Virus record (IMG/VR): IMGVR_UViG_3300037189_010603
Coordinates: 1-38,874 of that record
DNA from: a virus
DNA length: 38,874 nt
Direction: 5' to 3' (one strand)
Made by a program: the position numbers and the translations under genes. Below, in pieces: positions 2,444-23,613 of this stretch. Under the pieces are notes generated by a model. The model saw nothing but the letters and a program-made list of their open reading frames with translations. It had not been told where the DNA came from and searched no databases. Each line of letters opens with the position of its first letter. The stretch's first letter is position 1.

Positions 2444-4630
2444 ATGATCGAGTTACCCAATGCGATCAAACCGAAGGACTCTGACGATGACATGAGCGAC
2501 GATGAAAATCGTCTCGTTATCATGCGGAAGCGGTTTACTGCGGCTGTGTCGGCCCACTCGCACAACCGCACTGTCCAGCTGAACGATCTGAAGTTCATGG
2601 CGGGTTCCCCAGACAATCACTATCAGTGGCCTGAATACGCTGTCCGCACACGTGGCTCGAACAACGGTACGTTCAATCGGCCGATGTTAACGATCAACAA
2701 GTTGCCGCAGCACGTCAAGCAGGTAACGAACGATCAACGGCAGAACAGACCGTCGGTAAAGGTTGTCCCTATCGACGATAAGGGCGACGTAGAGCTTGCC
2801 AAAGTGTTCAACGGCATTATTCGCTACATCGAGAACCGCTCGTGCGCTGACGTGGCCTATGACTCGGCGTGTGAGAACCAGCTAATCATCGGTGAGGGCT
2901 ACATTCGCATTCGTACCGAGTATGCGGATGAGAACTCATTCGATCAAGAGATCAAGATTGATCGTGTCCGTAATGCGTTCTCCGTATACATGGACCCCAA
3001 CATCGACGACCCCACGGGACTAGATGCCCAATGGTGCTTCGTTAGCTCGTCTATCCCCCGTGAAGAGTTTAAGAAACGGTACCCAGACCAGCACGAGTAC
3101 TTCTATTTTAGCCAATCGGGGATCAATGATCCTGATCGCATGTACTGGGGCGATCAAGAGCAGGTGCGGATAGCCGAGTACTTCTACATCGAGAACGTTG
3201 CCGATACGCTGTGCGACTATGGTAACGGGCAGGTGTTCTTAAAGAGCTCGGACGAAGGTAAGCAGGCTAAAGAGCAGTATGGCAAGCCCGTTCGTGAACG
3301 GAAGACCATGCGTCGTACGATCAAGTGGTGTTTAACCAACGGCTACAAGATTCTTGAAGAGACCGAGTGGGCAGGGAAGTACATTCCCGTCGTACGGGTC
3401 GTTGGTAACGAGTTCGAGATTGACGGTAAGGTCCATGTGTCAGGACTGGTGCGCAACTCGAAGGATGCCCAGCGCATGTACAACTACTGGGCATCGCAGG
3501 AAGCTGAGATGTTGGCGCTGGCCCCTAAGGCTCCGTTTATCGGATACTCAGGGCAGTTCGACGCGTTCCGTCAGAAGTGGGAGACGGCGAACACAAGCAA
3601 CTGGCCGTACCTAGAGGTCTCTGCTGACGCAAAGGACGGCACTGGGGCCACGTTACCATTGCCACAGCGGTCAGCACCACCTCAAGCGCAGATAGGCTTG
3701 ATTGAGGCTAAAAAGGGTGCTGCAGAGGATATGAAGAACACTACGGGGCAGTACAATGCCTCGTTGGGCATGACCAGCAACGAACGGTCGGGTAAAGCGA
3801 TCCTTGCACGTCAGCGTGAGGGCGACACGGGTACGTTTCACTACGTCGATAACTTTGCACGGGCGATCAAGTCGGTGGGTAAGCAGCTGGTTGATCTGAT
3901 TCCGAAGATCTACGACACCAGTCGTGTGATGCGGATCGTCGGGGAAGATGGTGAGTCGGAGTTGGCGGAGATTGATCCGACGCAACAGCAAGGTGTGACC
4001 CCAGTTCAAGACCCGAACAACCCTGCGATCACGATTAAGAAGATCTACAACCTCGGTGTTGGTCAGTTTGATCTGATTGTATCGACTGGACCGGGTTATG
4101 CGACCAAACGGCAGGAAGCATTGGAGTCGATGGCGCAGTTGCTGCAAGGTAATCCGCAGTTGTGGATGATTGCTGGGGATCTGTTCGTCAAGAACATGGA
4201 TTGGCCCGGTGCATCGGACATGGCGGAGCGCCTTAAACGCTCGATGGATCCGAAGCTGCTACAAGGGGATGACAAGACTCCTGAGTTCCAAGCCGCTCAG
4301 CAACAGATTGAGCAGATGGGTCAGCAGATGCAGCAGATGCAGCAGATGTTGCAAGGGTTTGGTAAGTCTTTGGAGGTTGAGAAGTTGAAGATTCAAGCAT
4401 ATGATGCAGAAACCAAGCGCATTTCTGCCATTGCTGGTGGGTTTGACGAACAGCAAGTGAGAACGCTAGCGTTGGAGACCATGAAGGAAGTCTTGCAAAT
4501 GGGTGATTTGTCTATACAATCGCAGATGCAACAGGGTATGCCGCAAGAACAACCAATACCGCAAGGTATGCCTCAAGGACAACTAGCTGACCCAAGTCAA
4601 CCAATGGTCAGTCCAATGGAGGGTGTCTAA
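2444..4630 (+). CDS. Portal protein, P22-like
   Basis: A 728-residue protein forming the ring at the special capsid vertex through which DNA enters and leaves. The N-terminal two thirds match the P22 portal family in length and character (for example NRPMLTINKLPQHVKQVTND at about residues 78-97, and ENQLIIGEGYIRI at about 144-156). The C-terminal third has a glutamine-rich helical stretch (QQQIEQMGQQMQQMQQMLQG, about 623-642) like the P22 portal barrel, then a Gln/Pro/Met-rich tail. It follows the lysine-rich gene by 8 bp. In P22 the barrel senses DNA filling and triggers the headful cut, so this fits the TerL type seen here. Confidence 0.93.
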   Translation: MIELPNAIKPKDSDDDMSDDENRLVIMRKRFTAAVSAHSHNRTVQLNDLKFMAGSPDNHYQWPEYAVRTRGSNNGTFNRPMLTINKLPQHVKQVTNDQRQNRPSVKVVPIDDKGDVELAKVFNGIIRYIENRSCADVAYDSACENQLIIGEGYIRIRTEYADENSFDQEIKIDRVRNAFSVYMDPNIDDPTGLDAQWCFVSSSIPREEFKKRYPDQHEYFYFSQSGINDPDRMYWGDQEQVRIAEYFYIENVADTLCDYGNGQVFLKSSDEGKQAKEQYGKPVRERKTMRRTIKWCLTNGYKILEETEWAGKYIPVVRVVGNEFEIDGKVHVSGLVRNSKDAQRMYNYWASQEAEMLALAPKAPFIGYSGQFDAFRQKWETANTSNWPYLEVSADAKDGTGATLPLPQRSAPPQAQIGLIEAKKGAAEDMKNTTGQYNASLGMTSNERSGKAILARQREGDTGTFHYVDNFARAIKSVGKQLVDLIPKIYDTSRVMRIVGEDGESELAEIDPTQQQGVTPVQDPNNPAITIKKIYNLGVGQFDLIVSTGPGYATKRQEALESMAQLLQGNPQLWMIAGDLFVKNMDWPGASDMAERLKRSMDPKLLQGDDKTPEFQAAQQQIEQMGQQMQQMQQMLQGFGKSLEVEKLKIQAYDAETKRISAIAGGFDEQQVRTLALETMKEVLQMGDLSIQSQMQQGMPQEQPIPQGMPQGQLADPSQPMVSPMEGV

Positions 4631-15538: not shown

Positions 15539-16819
15539 ATGGCCGTAGATGCTAGTTTGCTGACGAACAACCTCGGTGAAGTTAAGTACAACCAATTACC
15601 TGACATCAGTGCTATCTCCAGCCAGTTTGCGGCTGCTGACCAAGCACGGTCACAGACCGCTCGTAACAACATTTTGGCTCAGGATGACCAGCGTGTATTG
15701 ACCAACAATCAACGTGCAGACAACTACCTTGCACAAAACCCTGGCGTGCAAGGAGAAGAGCGCAATCGTGGCTTACAACAGTTTGGTACTCAAGGTGCCA
15801 AAGTTGGCGAAGCATTAAATACTAATGATCAAGCTAGTTTTAATCTGACTGAGGATAAAATTAAAGCAGCTACAGACGGTCTTAGATCTGCCGTTGATGA
15901 TAATTCCTACCAACAGTATTTGAATTACGCTAGAGAAAAATTTGGTCCGGACGCTCTAAAGAATCTACCTCCCGTTTATAACAAGGCTCAGGTTGACCAA
16001 CTTATCTTTGGTGGTGACAAACTATTAAAGACTATCTTAGAGATGAAAAAACTTGAGCAAGGTGACAAAAGAATTGAATATGATTATGAGATTAACAATA
16101 GACGAGCTACTGACTCCGAGAAGCGTACAGATCTTATGGGAGGGGCATCTGCCCGATCGGGTGACAATAAGATAATTTCCGACCAAATTGTGGAACTGAA
16201 TGGTTTTGGCGCCAATTTGCCAAAAAACATCCAAGACACACAGATGATAGAAAATGCGTTAGTTAACTTGGATAAGTCTCCAAATCAAGGAGGTCCTATT
16301 ACTGGAGGTTTGGGTGAAACACGCACCAGCCTTCTTCGTGGGCTCAGTTCCTTTGTTAATTTATCACCTGAAGCGATGAAATCCCTCGAGAGTACTGAAA
16401 ACCTATCTCAGACGTTTAAACGAATTGTTTCACAGGAAGCAATGACGACACCTGTGAAGGGTAAAGCTGGTCTTACTGATGCCGACCTTCAATTCGTTAA
16501 GGAGTTAGTTGGTGGAACTATTGAGCTTACTCCTGAAACCCTAAAAAAAGCGTTCAGAATAGGTTTGAATAATAAATTAGCTTCTGAAAACGACGCCATA
16601 AAAAAATCGAGAGACATTTTAAAAAACACTGGTAGACGTAGTGTTTACCTTGAACAATTAGCCACTCGACCTCTTAAGTCCATGATTTCGCATGACGGCG
16701 TAACTTTAGTGTCGCCTGATGGAAAAGCAAAAACTTTACCTTCTCCCGAGGCAGCTAGAGCCGCTCGTGACAAATACAATGCGTTTTTAGCGGAGGAGGC
16801 TGCGAATGCCAGTTACTAG
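15539..16819 (+). CDS. DNA ejection protein 2 (P22 gp20-like position)
   Basis: A 426-residue, mainly helical, hydrophilic protein between two recognisable ejection proteins. I chose the ATG at 15539 because AAGGGAGG sits just before it; an upstream in-frame start at 15494 would overlap the previous gene by 32 bases without a ribosome-binding site. The N-terminal 120 residues are Gln/Asn/Ala-rich (for example ARNNILAQDDQRVLTNNQRA); the rest has amphipathic helices. In P22 three such proteins leave the particle with the DNA. The stop overlaps the next start by 14 bases. Confidence 0.7.
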   Translation: MAVDASLLTNNLGEVKYNQLPDISAISSQFAAADQARSQTARNNILAQDDQRVLTNNQRADNYLAQNPGVQGEERNRGLQQFGTQGAKVGEALNTNDQASFNLTEDKIKAATDGLRSAVDDNSYQQYLNYAREKFGPDALKNLPPVYNKAQVDQLIFGGDKLLKTILEMKKLEQGDKRIEYDYEINNRRATDSEKRTDLMGGASARSGDNKIISDQIVELNGFGANLPKNIQDTQMIENALVNLDKSPNQGGPITGGLGETRTSLLRGLSSFVNLSPEAMKSLESTENLSQTFKRIVSQEAMTTPVKGKAGLTDADLQFVKELVGGTIELTPETLKKAFRIGLNNKLASENDAIKKSRDILKNTGRRSVYLEQLATRPLKSMISHDGVTLVSPDGKAKTLPSPEAARAARDKYNAFLAEEAANASY

Positions 16820-19800
16820 ATTTGACGATCCTCAGGTTCTGACTGCTATTAACAATGCCGAGCGTGAGAATGGAATTCCCCCGGGGTTGATGCAGTCGCT
16901 TGTCGTAAATGGCGAACGCAGTAACTCTAACCAAGTATCACCGGCCGGTGCACGAACTGTGTTCCAAGTTATCCCTGCTACGCGCAATGCATTGAAGCAA
17001 AAATACGGTGTTGACGCCTATAGTCCTGATCTTAACGAACAAGCACGGGCGTCTGCTCTTGTGGTTAAAGAGGGTCTTGATCGAAACAAGGGCAATCCTG
17101 CTGCCGCTGTAGCAGAATATCACGGTGGTACGAACCCTCGTAACCATGGACCAATAACCAACGCATACACCAAGCGAGTCATTGGTGGTTTTGAAGGTGG
17201 ACAAATGGTATCAGCTGACAAACCTAATGATCCCTTCGATGATATTGTCGCTGAGTTTTCAAGTGGTGACGGTAGCAAGGGACCATTACCAGACAGTAGC
17301 CCTAAGGCTTCCGCTCCTTCTGAAGACCCATTCGATCAGATTGTTGCCGAATATAGCAATGGTGGCACACAATCATCCTCACCTAGTAGACAACAACCTC
17401 AATCTGCCCCAGAACAAAAACAAGATCCTAGTTTCCTTGAGAACGTAGGGACGACTCTCTATAACGTCCCCGGAAGTGCCGCTAGGTTTGCTGGTGATAC
17501 CTATCAGGGTATAGCACAGGCTATCCAGAGTCCCGTTCAAACTGCAAAAGCAGCATACGTCGCTGCTGGTAAACTTGGTGATTACGTTGGTATTCCAGCG
17601 GGTGAGGATCAACCAACGAACGTAACAAATTCACCCCTCGTGCAAGATGTGACTGCTGCCGCTAATGACCCTAAGGGAACAATCGAAGCAGCCGGTCGTC
17701 AACTGCGCGATGACCCTGTCCGAACCATTGCTACAGTCGCTCCAGTCTTAACTCCTTTAAAAGGGGTTACAGCCACTGGAGCTCTAGGTGCTACAGCTCG
17801 TGGCGTCGGTAAACTGGCAGGTGCTGCTGACATGCTGACTAACACCGCTGTCATGAAGCCCGTCGAGCTTGCTGGTCGTGGTCTAGTAGGAGGAGCAAAG
17901 ACACTAGCCCAGCTTGCAGTAGTACCTAAGCAAGGTGGCGGGTACATTAACGAGCTTGGTAACTCGACCAACGCAGCTCAAATATCGAACGCTTTGAAAG
18001 CTGAAGCACGGTCGAACGTACCAGGATATCGTAGAACGGTAGAAGACATTGCTCCAGAGGTAGCACCTTTTCAACGTAAGACGATCCCGTCGAAGCAGAG
18101 ACTTGAGCTGGATCAAGCCAATGACATGGCTTTAACCAGCAACGTTGATCGAGGAATTGAGTCTTCCCAGTCACTGAAAGACCAACGCTTTGCTGAAACT
18201 TCTCCGTTGTATAAGCAAGCTGATAATGCAACCGTTGATGTTTCTAACAAAGATCTTTACATCAATTCTCAGCAATTCCCTGATGTTTATGGTAAGTCAA
18301 AAACAGACATTAATAACGGCCGTAGATCCTTAGCAAAGGGACAAGAACCACTCCCGTCTACGTTTGGTGGAACGGTAGAAGCAGATACTCTATTGGCGCA
18401 GCAAGGTAGCGATCTTGCGCAAGCTCAAACCAAGCTGGATAGAGCAACAGAGCGTTTACAAGCAGGTAACCTGACGCCTGAGCAACGCGCTGTTATCGAA
18501 GCCGATGTTAATTTGAACAAAAACATCGTAGAGAAACTGCAAGCCGACATTGACAAACGTCAGCAGGTTTTAGCTGGTAGCAAAACTGCTGATTTGAACC
18601 CTGACGAAATTAAGCGTCAAGCCGCTATAGCTAAGATCGAGCAGGAACGCAAAAGAACTGAAGCTCTTACAGCATCACAAAAACCAGAGCTGACAAACAA
18701 CAAACTTGCAACTTCTGTTAGTGTAAATCAAGCCAAGTCGGCATTGATCCAAGATCGTCTTAATAAATCAAAAGGAAAGAACCAATTAACAGACGATTAT
18801 CTGCGAGCACAACTCGAAGACCTTGGTGCTAGTTCAGCCGCAAAAACTGGCACGATTGCTGACTCAAACACTGCCAACAAACTTGGGGTTCCTGACGCTA
18901 AAGCAAAAGTTAATGCTCTTGCATCAGCTGACAAAGCGTCGAAAATCCAAGGGTTTGAAGAGAATAGTGCTGTTAAAGGTACGAATAAAGATCGTCTTGC
19001 CTCTCGTATTCAATTTGATACGGATCGACTTGCATTGATGAAAGCTCAGATTGCCGAGAAAGAAGCTAAACTGAACTCTGGTATGTCCGCCGCTGACAAG
19101 GCTGCTGCTGATGCCGAGATTGCTGGTAATCAGACCAAGGTGAAGGAACTACAAGACAAAATAGATCAAACTCTTGGCTTGCCCACCCTTGACGATGTAA
19201 CTAAAATGAAAGGTAACGAGATTAATCAACACATTAAAAATCTTAACACCAAGATATACGGAAGCAAACAGATCGGTGGTGAGGTTGCCTTAGATCGCAG
19301 TGGTGGAGAGTTTAAAGCCTTGACCAAACATCTCCGCCGAGTGGAGGCATGGCGGGATAAAGTACTTCCAACTTTTAAACAAGCGGATGAAATCTTTGCA
19401 AAATATTCCAAAGATATTAACCGTTCAGCAGTCATGGAGAAGTTTAAAGAAAAACTTGCACCACTGCTAGATGGGGATTCTGTCAATGTCAGAGCATTTG
19501 CAACTGCTTTCGATAACCCAAGTAAGATCATTGATGAGGTGTTAGAAGCTAGCTACAACAACAAAAAGATCTCTGGCGAACGTCGCTTAGACAGCATCAT
19601 CACACCCGAAGATAAACAACGCTTGGTTGACGTTCTCGATGAACTGAACCGCCGCAATAAGGCCGACTCGTATGCACGTACCAGAGCGGAGTTACCAGAA
19701 GGTAAGATCCCAGGGGGTAACGTAACTACTACAGCTAATAGCCGAGCTGCTGTCGAGGTGGGTAACAAGGCATTAGCGTACATCAAGAACGTCTTTAGTA

Positions 19801-20030
19801 GTGAGTATCTCAAGCAAGCTGGATTTGACTTGCAAGACCCTGCTAAGTTTGCCGCACAACTTGATAAAGCACTACCAACTTACCGAGCCGTCGAAAAGAC
19901 TGAAAACGCATTAAGAGGAGCGGGTAACGTTATCTCTACAGTTGGCCGCAAAACACCACTTTTCAGAGAGATAGAACCAACCAGAAACAACATCGTCAAC
20001 AACTTGCGGAATTGGCTAACTGGTATATAA
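16806..20030 (+). CDS. DNA ejection protein 3 with N-terminal lytic transglycosylase domain
   Basis: A 1074-residue protein. Residues about 10-115 look like a soluble lytic transglycosylase (SLT) domain: Glu37 in LVVNGERSNS is the candidate catalytic acid, followed by VSPAGARTVFQVIPATR and by AVAEYHGGT near residue 105, all standard SLT positions. It should cut peptidoglycan locally so that DNA can pass the wall. After a Ser/Pro/Gln-rich linker repeating a DPFDxIVAE motif (about 142-185), the rest is long and mainly helical, with coiled-coil stretches around residues 530-760. The design resembles T7 gp16 more than P22 gp16, although the setting is P22-like. No frameshift was seen. Confidence 0.82.
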   Translation: MPVTRFDDPQVLTAINNAERENGIPPGLMQSLVVNGERSNSNQVSPAGARTVFQVIPATRNALKQKYGVDAYSPDLNEQARASALVVKEGLDRNKGNPAAAVAEYHGGTNPRNHGPITNAYTKRVIGGFEGGQMVSADKPNDPFDDIVAEFSSGDGSKGPLPDSSPKASAPSEDPFDQIVAEYSNGGTQSSSPSRQQPQSAPEQKQDPSFLENVGTTLYNVPGSAARFAGDTYQGIAQAIQSPVQTAKAAYVAAGKLGDYVGIPAGEDQPTNVTNSPLVQDVTAAANDPKGTIEAAGRQLRDDPVRTIATVAPVLTPLKGVTATGALGATARGVGKLAGAADMLTNTAVMKPVELAGRGLVGGAKTLAQLAVVPKQGGGYINELGNSTNAAQISNALKAEARSNVPGYRRTVEDIAPEVAPFQRKTIPSKQRLELDQANDMALTSNVDRGIESSQSLKDQRFAETSPLYKQADNATVDVSNKDLYINSQQFPDVYGKSKTDINNGRRSLAKGQEPLPSTFGGTVEADTLLAQQGSDLAQAQTKLDRATERLQAGNLTPEQRAVIEADVNLNKNIVEKLQADIDKRQQVLAGSKTADLNPDEIKRQAAIAKIEQERKRTEALTASQKPELTNNKLATSVSVNQAKSALIQDRLNKSKGKNQLTDDYLRAQLEDLGASSAAKTGTIADSNTANKLGVPDAKAKVNALASADKASKIQGFEENSAVKGTNKDRLASRIQFDTDRLALMKAQIAEKEAKLNSGMSAADKAAADAEIAGNQTKVKELQDKIDQTLGLPTLDDVTKMKGNEINQHIKNLNTKIYGSKQIGGEVALDRSGGEFKALTKHLRRVEAWRDKVLPTFKQADEIFAKYSKDINRSAVMEKFKEKLAPLLDGDSVNVRAFATAFDNPSKIIDEVLEASYNNKKISGERRLDSIITPEDKQRLVDVLDELNRRNKADSYARTRAELPEGKIPGGNVTTTANSRAAVEVGNKALAYIKNVFSSEYLKQAGFDLQDPAKFAAQLDKALPTYRAVEKTENALRGAGNVISTVGRKTPLFREIEPTRNNIVNNLRNWLTGI

Positions 20031-21536: not shown

Positions 21537-21722
21537 TGACCAACCGTTATTCTTAGAGACATTGTCGATTTGTAAATGTTCCTCTATATCTATTGTTATT
21601 ATTATTTTCTCTTTAGGTTTATACTTACCGTATAAAATCGCACCGTTTGGAACAACCAATTTCCAAATTTTATTTTTGTTAGTCCAATGATAAACCAAAT
21701 CACCAATTTTAAAGTCATCCAT
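21483..21722 (-). CDS. Small protein at the end of the replication operon, unknown
   Basis: A 79-residue protein beginning MDDFKIGDLVYHWTNKNKIW. The opening resembles small SH3/KOW-like barrel proteins (GDLVYxW), but I cannot assign a family. Its start overlaps the helicase stop by eight bases, with GGAGAATG upstream, so it is co-translated as the last gene of the leftward operon. The last 18 codons are antisense to the holin-like gene. That overlap lowers confidence in the C-terminus but the start context is good. Confidence 0.6.
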   Translation of the reverse strand: MDDFKIGDLVYHWTNKNKIWKLVVPNGAILYGKYKPKEKIIITIDIEEHLQIDNVSKNNGWSLFTRPLHLIEATHTTKT

Positions 21723-23613
21723 ACTTCATTCTCCGATACTCTCCGATTGCTTTTCTTAGTGAATTTTCACCAGCGGCTTTTTCGTCCAGAGCCATTGCCT
21801 GTGCTTGGTCTAACGTATCCTTGGTGAAAATTCGATGGCATACTACTGGTTTCTTTTGCCCCTGCCGTCGTATCCGTGCATTGAACTGGCTGTATAGGTC
21901 GAGTGACCATGTCAGACCAAACCACACAAGGATGAACCCTGTTTTCTGTAGCCCATCAATCCCGTGCCCCATGGAATTATGTGAAATAAACATCTCGCCT
22001 TCCTTATTACGTATTAAGAACCTGTTTCGTGGTCCACAGTTAACAAGGTCATAGACATGCGTCCTTTTCTCTTTTTGACATTCTTCGGTTCCTGACTTTT
22101 CCCCCTCTTTTGACGATTGGACTTTATGGCATTTTGACGTATCAACTCGTGAATCTTGCCACATCGTAAACATTCCACCTCCACAATTGGATGGCGTTTG
22201 CCATTTGTATAAACTTTTTCGCTTGTTTTTCTCAGTATTTTGTACATGTCTGGCTTCCTTCCATTCTCCGTCAACAAGGATCTTATGGTTTGGAGTCATA
22301 GTTATTCCAAACAGCTCGATAGTTTTTTCATACCCTGAATACGAGCAACCATCATGGGTGACGTATTCCACCCCATCAAAAACTTTATCAGTTTGTAGAA
22401 CCTCTGTAATTTTAACCCAGCCTCTTAGTTCAGTTAGAACCTCGGTGTCAGCAGCTAAACACAAAGGGTGCCCGATCATCAAGGGACAGTCACCACTCTG
22501 CCACCGCTTCATGGCGTTGTTCAGTTGTGCGTCGCTCTTGCATGCAGTCAGGTTGATAGGATTGAGTGATTTAAACTTCTTCATGATCCTGTCTGCGTCG
22601 CTTTTGTACGCATAGGAACACAACACTGGGTTACCTTGTGCCGAGTCGATAATGTCCTCCAGTGCATCCAGCTTCAAGTCGTGGATAACGTGGTACTCTG
22701 GTTTACCAGCCTCTAAATACATCGCACCATTAGAGAACTGTAGGCACTTGTTGGTCAACGACGCTTTGTTAAAGATCTCGACGTGGGTCTGTGCATCGAG
22801 CTGAAGGAAAAACTCCTTCTCCATCCCGTCGTAGTCTGCTCGTAGTTCGTCGGGTAGCTCGATCAGCAAGTCGTTAATCACCATGTCAGGTAGCTTATTG
22901 TATTCTTCTGCTGACATCTCTAACGTAATGTCCCCGATCTTTTGCTTGATCTCATCGAGCGAGAAGTTATGCGGCTTTAGCTTGTACCCGTCTTTAGAGA
23001 AATAGTTCTCCAAAAAGTGAGTCTTGTAGACCCCGAGTCGTTGCCCCTTATCGACAACCAAGAACTGCCCATGAAGATCAGGGAAACCGTTTGACGCTGG
23101 TGTCCCAGTCAACCCCGTGATCCAGTCCATCTTGGCCACAATCGGTAACACAGCTTTGCTTCTTTTACTCGTGCTGTTTTTCATCTTCGTCACTTCGTCC
23201 CAGACGATACCGTTGAACGGTAGATCTTTGCCATTGTCGATTAGCTTCTTTTTGACGACGTCGCTCAACCACTTTAGGTTCTCATTGTTAATCAGGTACA
23301 CATTGGCTTTGCGATTGAGTGCCCTAAAGCGCTGGTCTGGTGTACCTGAGATAAGCGAGAACGTAAGGTGTTTCGTCTGTGCCCATTCTAACGCCTGTTG
23401 ACGCCATACGCCCTTTAACGGGCGTAATGGTGCCACGACAAGCACGGACTTCAGCACACCTTGATTGAGAAGATGTGCCACGGTACTCAGGGTTATGATG
23501 GTCTTACCAAGACCCATGTCGAGCCAGAGCATCGTGTAAGGGTTGGTACACTGATGCGCAATTGCACGCTTCTGGTAATCGTGGAGATCACTTGGTTTCA
23601 GTATTTTTGACAC
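21715..23613 (-). CDS. SNF2-family DNA helicase/translocase containing a mini-intein
   Basis: A 632-residue precursor. After intein removal a 470-residue SNF2-type helicase should remain. Visible motifs: Walker A LDMGLGKT (31-38), motif II VWDEV (137-141), motif III LTGTPASN (168-175), motif V GHPL-SMGHGIDGLQ split by the intein after Leu384, and motif VI QFNARIRRQGQ (576-586). In many phages a helicase of this kind follows VRR-NUC, DUF2800 and DUF2815-type genes and works in replication or recombination. It overlaps the nuclease gene by 26 bases. Since the intein breaks motif V, the helicase should be inactive until splicing occurs. Confidence 0.9.
   Translation of the reverse strand: MSKILKPSDLHDYQKRAIAHQCTNPYTMLWLDMGLGKTIITLSTVAHLLNQGVLKSVLVVAPLRPLKGVWRQQALEWAQTKHLTFSLISGTPDQRFRALNRKANVYLINNENLKWLSDVVKKKLIDNGKDLPFNGIVWDEVTKMKNSTSKRSKAVLPIVAKMDWITGLTGTPASNGFPDLHGQFLVVDKGQRLGVYKTHFLENYFSKDGYKLKPHNFSLDEIKQKIGDITLEMSAEEYNKLPDMVINDLLIELPDELRADYDGMEKEFFLQLDAQTHVEIFNKASLTNKCLQFSNGAMYLEAGKPEYHVIHDLKLDALEDIIDSAQGNPVLCSYAYKSDADRIMKKFKSLNPINLTACKSDAQLNNAMKRWQSGDCPLMIGHPLCLAADTEVLTELRGWVKITEVLQTDKVFDGVEYVTHDGCSYSGYEKTIELFGITMTPNHKILVDGEWKEARHVQNTEKNKRKSLYKWQTPSNCGGGMFTMWQDSRVDTSKCHKVQSSKEGEKSGTEECQKEKRTHVYDLVNCGPRNRFLIRNKEGEMFISHNSMGHGIDGLQKTGFILVWFGLTWSLDLYSQFNARIRRQGQKKPVVCHRIFTKDTLDQAQAMALDEKAAGENSLRKAIGEYRRMKYG
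21976..22461 (-). other. Mini-intein inside the SNF2 helicase (162 residues)
   Basis: Helicase residues 385-546. The first residue is Cys in CLAADTEVLTELRGWV (block A). Block B is seen as FGITMTPNHKIL, with the TxNH pattern. Block F is HVYDLVNCGPRNRFLI. Block G is EMFISHN, followed by Ser as the +1 residue. These are the residues needed for protein splicing: Cys1, block-B His, penultimate His, final Asn, Ser+1. No DOD or HNH endonuclease motif is present in the reading frame, so it is a mini-intein. Joining the flanks gives MIGHPL-SMGHGIDG, a normal SNF2 motif V. Confidence 0.9.
22014..22277 (-). other. Out-of-frame CxxC reading frame within the intein
   Basis: An 87-codon ORF in the +1 frame relative to the helicase, lying inside the intein linker. 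Its middle encodes KRHPIVEVECLRCGKIHELI, then a Lys/Arg/Asn-rich stretch. The CxxC (codons at 22161-22172) within a beta-hairpin-like setting resembles zinc-binding DNA-recognition modules found next to HNH endonucleases. It may be a decayed endonuclease part joined by frameshifts, or an overlapping gene. No good ribosome-binding site was found. The functional reading is uncertain. Confidence 0.3.

Follow-up and report, generated by a model that had tools for sequence, protein, structure and literature searches.

The window analysed here is the whole of IMG/VR record IMGVR_UViG_3300037189_010603, a viral contig of 38,874 bases, which carries a phage helicase gene interrupted by an intein. The helicase ORF matched Pfam SNF2-rel_dom (E=4.7e-18) and PHROG 62, DNA helicase (E=5e-116), and the intein lies in its motif V. 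Across the middle of the intein, the remnant of an HNH endonuclease gene was found in a different reading frame. The features of the locus are listed below.

21715..23613, minus strand: SNF2-type phage helicase gene; precursor of 632 aa, 470 aa after predicted splicing
21976..22461, minus strand: intein of 162 aa, helicase residues 385-546, between GHPL and SMGHG of motif V
22246..22461, minus strand: N-terminal half of the Hint domain, intein residues 1-72, with C1, T56 and H59 invariant
22459-22461, minus strand: Cys1 codon
22285-22296, minus strand: block B, T56 to H59
22256..22260, minus strand: Shine-Dalgarno sequence AAGGA, 8 nt ahead of the ATG of the out-of-frame ORF
22014..22247, minus strand: +1-frame remnant of the overlapping HNH ORF, 77 aa with an ATG start, found with the HNH profile
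22069..22245, minus strand: in-frame linker, a shadow translation of the endonuclease remnant, predicted to be disordered
22103..22104, minus strand: deletion scar, 438 nt lost with respect to the relative L002
21976..22068, minus strand: C-terminal half of the Hint domain (VYDLVNCGPRNRF...SHN), with H161-N162 at 21976-21981
21973..21975, minus strand: +1 Ser codon of the C-extein, TCC

The intein begins at Cys385 with CLAADTEV and contains block B TPNHKIL, block F HVYDLVNCGPRNRF and block G FISHN, followed by Ser547. Joining the helicase flanks without it gave GHPLSMGHGIDG. Class 1 inteins have Cys or Ser at position 1 and TxxH in block B, which are represented here by C1, T56 and H59, all three invariant in 64 relatives. 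They end in His-Asn followed by Cys, Ser or Thr, which is SHN and then Ser in the window; the invariance of His-Asn and the +1 residue among the relatives is partly by construction, because the ends of their inteins were located by the His-Asn motif. The whole intein and the helicase form one ORF, and not the separate IntN and IntC ORFs of a split intein.

The 162 amino acids alone gave matches under the respective cut-offs to NCBIfam intein_Nterm (E=5e-4) and to the Vint profile (E=0.003), while a profile of the 64 relatives matched the solved PDB inteins NEQ068, PI-MtuI/RecA and DnaX. The AlphaFold model of the window intein had a mean pLDDT of 85.6, with 97-98 in the Hint core, and a Foldseek search with it recovered inteins together with relatives of the Hint domain (top E=1.4e-4), as expected of a Hint fold. 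The pLDDT of the linker was about 46-60 across most of its length, and in the relatives the conservation of the linker frame was no better than that of the third frame. A sequence-only reading of this DNA had described an intein that bears the class 1 residues and splits SNF2 motif V, and had named a search against Hint profiles as a check. Its coordinates, the length of 162 residues and all the motifs it quoted proved exact by ORF and translation check, the profile match came weakly from the intein alone and then through the profile of the relatives and the model, and the intein is confirmed by its residues and the predicted fold, with splicing as a prediction.

The site was examined in near relatives. 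In two IMG/VR contigs (L004 and L005) the helicase is 97% identical in the best segment and the site is empty, reading GHPL-SMGHG; these are intein-free alleles with an intact extein, of the kind that the same reading had suggested for comparison. L002 (98%) and L003 (75%) carry an intein of 308 aa at the identical site, and their helicase frames are open throughout without a stop (778 and 775 aa). The +1 Ser codon, TCC in the window, L002 and L003, is AGC where the site is empty, a difference that co-conversion of the flanking codons would explain. The insert behaves like a mobile element, being present, absent or shortened among near relatives and carrying in the family an endonuclease under selection. 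Elsewhere in the window, a protein of 1074 aa (16806-20030) seemingly has about 300 extra codons, coiled-coil-like, with respect to the otherwise near-identical L002.

The intact inteins of L002 and L003 contain a second ORF in the +1 frame across their middle (L002 4367-5035; L003 4358-5026), which has in L002 a Shine-Dalgarno sequence of its own, encodes 223 aa from its ATG and shows CxxC zinc-finger pairs and the motif YAGRGI...W...ERIDNN..YSRTNCRWAT. The window intein equals the L002 intein minus 438 nt, exactly 146 codons, and therefore both frames survive. The remnant retained the zinc-finger half and lost the HNH core; the HNH profile matched it at 22265-22083 (E=6.7e-7), and a search with this profile found no further HNH copy elsewhere in the window record. 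No long perfect repeat was found at the deletion scar, where there is only a short imperfect GGG(A) match. The sequence-only reading had stated that no in-frame homing endonuclease remains, which is literally true and nevertheless misleading, since the endonuclease of the relatives is never in frame and the window remnant lies in the +1 frame. What it missed is the overlapping +1-frame HNH gene, of which the window mini-intein is a deletion derivative, and the large family built in this way. As in the window, the inteins of three other loci (L015, L023 and L073) have been shortened, apparently independently, and keep part of an HNH out of frame.

The identity of the out-of-frame protein was assessed by profile and structure. 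All of the 51 alternative-frame proteins tested matched HNH endonuclease PHROGs (best 1e-66; 3.6e-40 for L002). As to the beta-beta-alpha-metal fold, the HNH model, with a pLDDT of 89.6, found the HNH enzyme PacI as the best VIA-align match (Z 6.8 over 76 residues); Foldseek returned nothing significant. Pfam and NCBIfam gave no HNH family match on the alternative-frame ORFs, a PDB sequence search with the HNH profile gave no match, and the canonical first His of HNH was not evident in the overlapping ORF, in a PacI-like manner. The overprinted HNH is homologous to the free-standing phage HNH homing genes of PHROG 374/3377, which differ in not lying within an intein.

The frame of the HNH was determined across the family by three IMG/VR scans and one bacterial-genome scan, with profiles of Hint-N, Hint-C and HNH used to sort the inteins into classes. 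Beyond these phages, the nearest intein relatives were those of DNA polymerase I (polA) from APSE, Sodalis SO-1, Dhillonvirus, Salmonella Jerseyvirus, Caulobacter, Pseudomonas MR14, Vibrio 97.13, Shewanella SFCi1, Gardnerella AB1 and EBPR siphovirus 2, and the host genes checked by Pfam were family A polymerases and SNF2/SF2-type helicases. The intein matched 191 GenBank phage records, and the HNH was out of frame in every one of the listed GenBank phage inteins read with a full HNH. The survey yielded 209 distinct inteins that are contiguous and include a full HNH (183 clusters at 85% nucleotide identity), with the HNH in the +1 frame in 128, in the +2 frame in 81 and in frame in none. The endonuclease continuous with the Hint frame that marks a bifunctional intein was thus found in 0 of 209. 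A further 14 contiguous inteins had no HNH match at all; they measure only 109-187 aa and are therefore too short for another endonuclease.

The GenBank records of APSE-1 (P45/P46) and SO-1 (gp38/gp39) list both ORFs. For APSE-1 (L008, 3203-3853), the annotation begins P46 at a late ATG, 3431; the HNH ORF likely starts from GTG at 3203, which would take in the zinc-finger half. In Sodalis phage SO-1 (L009), the polymerase insert at 3001-3897 is annotated as a type I self-splicing intron; we read it as an intein whose HNH lies in the +2 frame, and it gave no Rfam intron match.

The use of both frames was examined by stop codons and substitutions. The expected number of stops was obtained by permuting synonymous codons within each HNH over 35,436 HNH codons of the 183 clusters. 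As a result, 0 intein-frame stops were observed over the HNH against 1,012 expected, in clusters that are related and so not independent trials, and in a class of which contiguity is itself a condition, so that inteins with stops would be sorted out; besides the split inteins, only L037 and L066 with indels and the ambiguous locus L272 lay outside this class. The third frame showed no depletion (2,278 stops observed versus 2,189 expected). In 19 non-overlapping pairs, the differences at HNH codon positions 1, 2 and 3 were 0.19, 0.15 and 0.40 for +1 members and 0.22, 0.15 and 0.38 for +2 members, and those in the Hint-N region fell on intein third positions. The absence of intein-frame stops together with substitutions on HNH third positions indicates that both frames are used. 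When the three frames of the same DNA were compared, the HNH frame was the most conserved in 10 of 10 pairs, and the intein frame over the HNH was roughly as free as the unused frame; the HNH is therefore selected as a protein and the linker is mainly kept open. Single frameshifts break the intein and HNH frames at L037 (1273-2194) and L066 (137-1002), by decay or sequencing error.

The two frame classes differed in the signals for starting the endonuclease. Among +1 members, a Shine-Dalgarno sequence stood ahead of the first start in 82 of 123 clusters versus a background of 9.3%, taken from out-of-frame start codons upstream, and in their helicase group it was located at a fixed position, nt 214. 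Among +2 members (e.g., L010, L012, L013 and L017) it was not enriched (4 of the 64 clusters with a start versus a background of 5.8%), and 64 of 67 clusters had an alternative frame that was already open at nt 92 or before it. These two properties of the +2 members would suit programmed frameshifting from the intein frame, by which a fusion of Hint-N and HNH would be made with no internal start. We regard this explanation as rather unlikely, since the Shine-Dalgarno sequence is enriched among the +1 members, is present in the window and keeps a constant place among the helicase inteins, and no common slippery site was noticed on unsystematic inspection.

Taken together, the insert is very probably a class 1-type intein with a homing endonuclease gene overprinted in another reading frame of the intein gene. 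The window by itself looks like an ordinary mini-intein after loss of an in-frame endonuclease, as the sequence-only reading implied, but this origin is barely credible given that the HNH is out of frame in L002, L003 and every full-HNH relative, and likewise in the window remnant. That only the intein is functional, and the HNH in the alternative frame no more than a dead, frameshifted remnant, holds for the window copy itself; as an account of the family it is highly improbable in view of the third-position bias, the conservation of the HNH frame across many lineages and the open HNH in 183 distinct clusters. Group I introns of phages commonly contain an HNH gene in another frame, and the SO-1 record uses the term 'type I self-splicing intron', which would favour a self-splicing RNA intron carrying an internal HNH gene. 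Such an intron has next to no probability here: there was no Rfam match at the gathering threshold in 12 sources (the window and 11 relatives), the Hint residues are conserved at the protein level and the host frame is open throughout. Group I intron identity was rejected on the Rfam result and the Hint residues.

The remaining alternative concerns what the intein does. The sequence-only reading proposed that it keeps the helicase inactive until splicing and so could time replication, and an insertion in motif V should inactivate the precursor. However, near-identical phages do without the intein, and its distribution and the HNH fit a selfish element. As phages with a 97%-identical helicase lack the insert, regulation is unnecessary to explain it; the proposal found no support, and we consider a replication switch very unlikely for an insert that behaves as a mobile element.

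Under the overprinting reading, a ribosome in the helicase frame of the intact relatives would produce one long precursor, in which the Hint halves would fold together and excise the element. The linker of about 200 aa in these relatives would be unstructured and would arise only because the endonuclease gene is translated out of its own frame. Another ribosome would start within the intein, at the Shine-Dalgarno sequence and ATG shortly past block B, and this internal start would give a separate zinc-finger/HNH endonuclease of about 220 aa. This enzyme presumably cuts intein-free alleles, and the element would be copied in by repair. With 438 nt of the endonuclease core gone and both frames kept, the window copy should therefore still splice and be unable to home.

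The history of the family was examined with trees of short sequences built by a fast method, in which the HNH tree required one frame change and the Hint tree six. The helicase inteins of the window's site formed one group in both trees, and Hint and HNH distances were correlated (Spearman 0.55; 0 of 200 permutations). The simplest reading is that HNH genes of two lineages moved into Hint elements, each lineage in its own frame, and that HNH and Hint then mostly travelled together. At another polA site (TGRxxG followed by NLQN), a split intein was found at several loci, and the Hint halves surround a separate HNH in L044, L067, L087 and L091. In L044, IntN ends at 1172, the HNH ORF (1042-1809) overlaps both neighbours, and IntC starts at 1763 or 1790; the same polA has a contiguous overprinted intein further on. 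This arrangement, in which a split intein with an overlapping HNH gene between its halves divides PolA and the same polA also has a contiguous overprinted intein, was seen over L044 1-3586 and also in L067, L087, L091, L194 and L212. The split inteins around an HNH are probable relatives of the overprinted family, and the L044 arrangement suggests, short of proof, an evolutionary step from overprinted to split intein. It is about an even chance that overprinting is a distinct and stable design of mobile inteins that arose from free-standing HNH genes on two or more occasions, one for each frame, and a stepping stone to split inteins. If so, a split intein would arise from an overprinted one by just a stop and a new start, a simple route from contiguous to split inteins.

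The usual description of a homing intein is that of a single bifunctional protein. Here the two functions lie in two overlapping frames, and annotations therefore miss the endonuclease or call the element an intron, in a widespread phage family to which well-sequenced phages of Salmonella, E. coli and insect symbionts belong. Overlapping genes can be studied in this family in a natural setting, with one frame conserved as protein and the other merely kept open. Frame-keeping deletions, as in the window, L015, L023 and L073, indicate how the endonuclease may go while the predicted splicing stays.

Inteins that contain a homing endonuclease are bifunctional, and their endonuclease domain sits between blocks B and F and continues the intein frame. 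The present family resembles them in the Hint halves, the class 1 residues, the endonuclease between blocks B and F, the insertion in conserved motifs of replication genes and the presence or absence among relatives. It differs in that the endonuclease is predicted to be a separate protein from an overlapping +1 or +2 frame, with none of the 209 in the intein frame. In the 'fractured genes' reportedly described by Dassa et al. in NAR in 2009, split inteins flank a free-standing endonuclease gene. The separately expressed endonuclease between Hint halves is common to both, and L044, L067, L087 and L091 have that very layout, whereas the overprinted inteins have their halves joined by the open overlapping frame into one ORF; the polA of L044 has both. 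The polymerase inteins of APSE, Dhillonvirus and Jerseyvirus in GenBank belong to the same family in a different host gene, and some of their records name an intein-containing polymerase; no publication on their ORF overlap was found in the open literature. One article describes a family of HNH homing genes that lie close to polymerases in phages (PMC10448857), and no overlap of intein and HNH was seen in the part of it consulted. A search confined to open-access papers found no report of an out-of-frame endonuclease within a splicing intein.

The only similar report found in the open literature is that of the ShiLan domain, a 'hidden HNH' in mycobacteriophage DNA methylases, in 2025 (PMC11855218). 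As in the relatives of the window, and as a remnant in the window itself, an out-of-frame HNH gene with zinc fingers there lies within an open host frame, and Pacc40, the second hidden-HNH case of that paper, was matched to PacI, as was the HNH here. Neither a splicing domain nor a ribosome binding site or Shine-Dalgarno sequence was detected by its authors (PMC11855218). The hidden HNH stays in the methylase, whereas the family described here has a Hint domain, an intein predicted to remove the shadow peptide and, in its +1 members, a Shine-Dalgarno sequence. The window element alone is of a known kind; an intein with its endonuclease overprinted in another frame is a new form of that kind, of which a prior description may exist.
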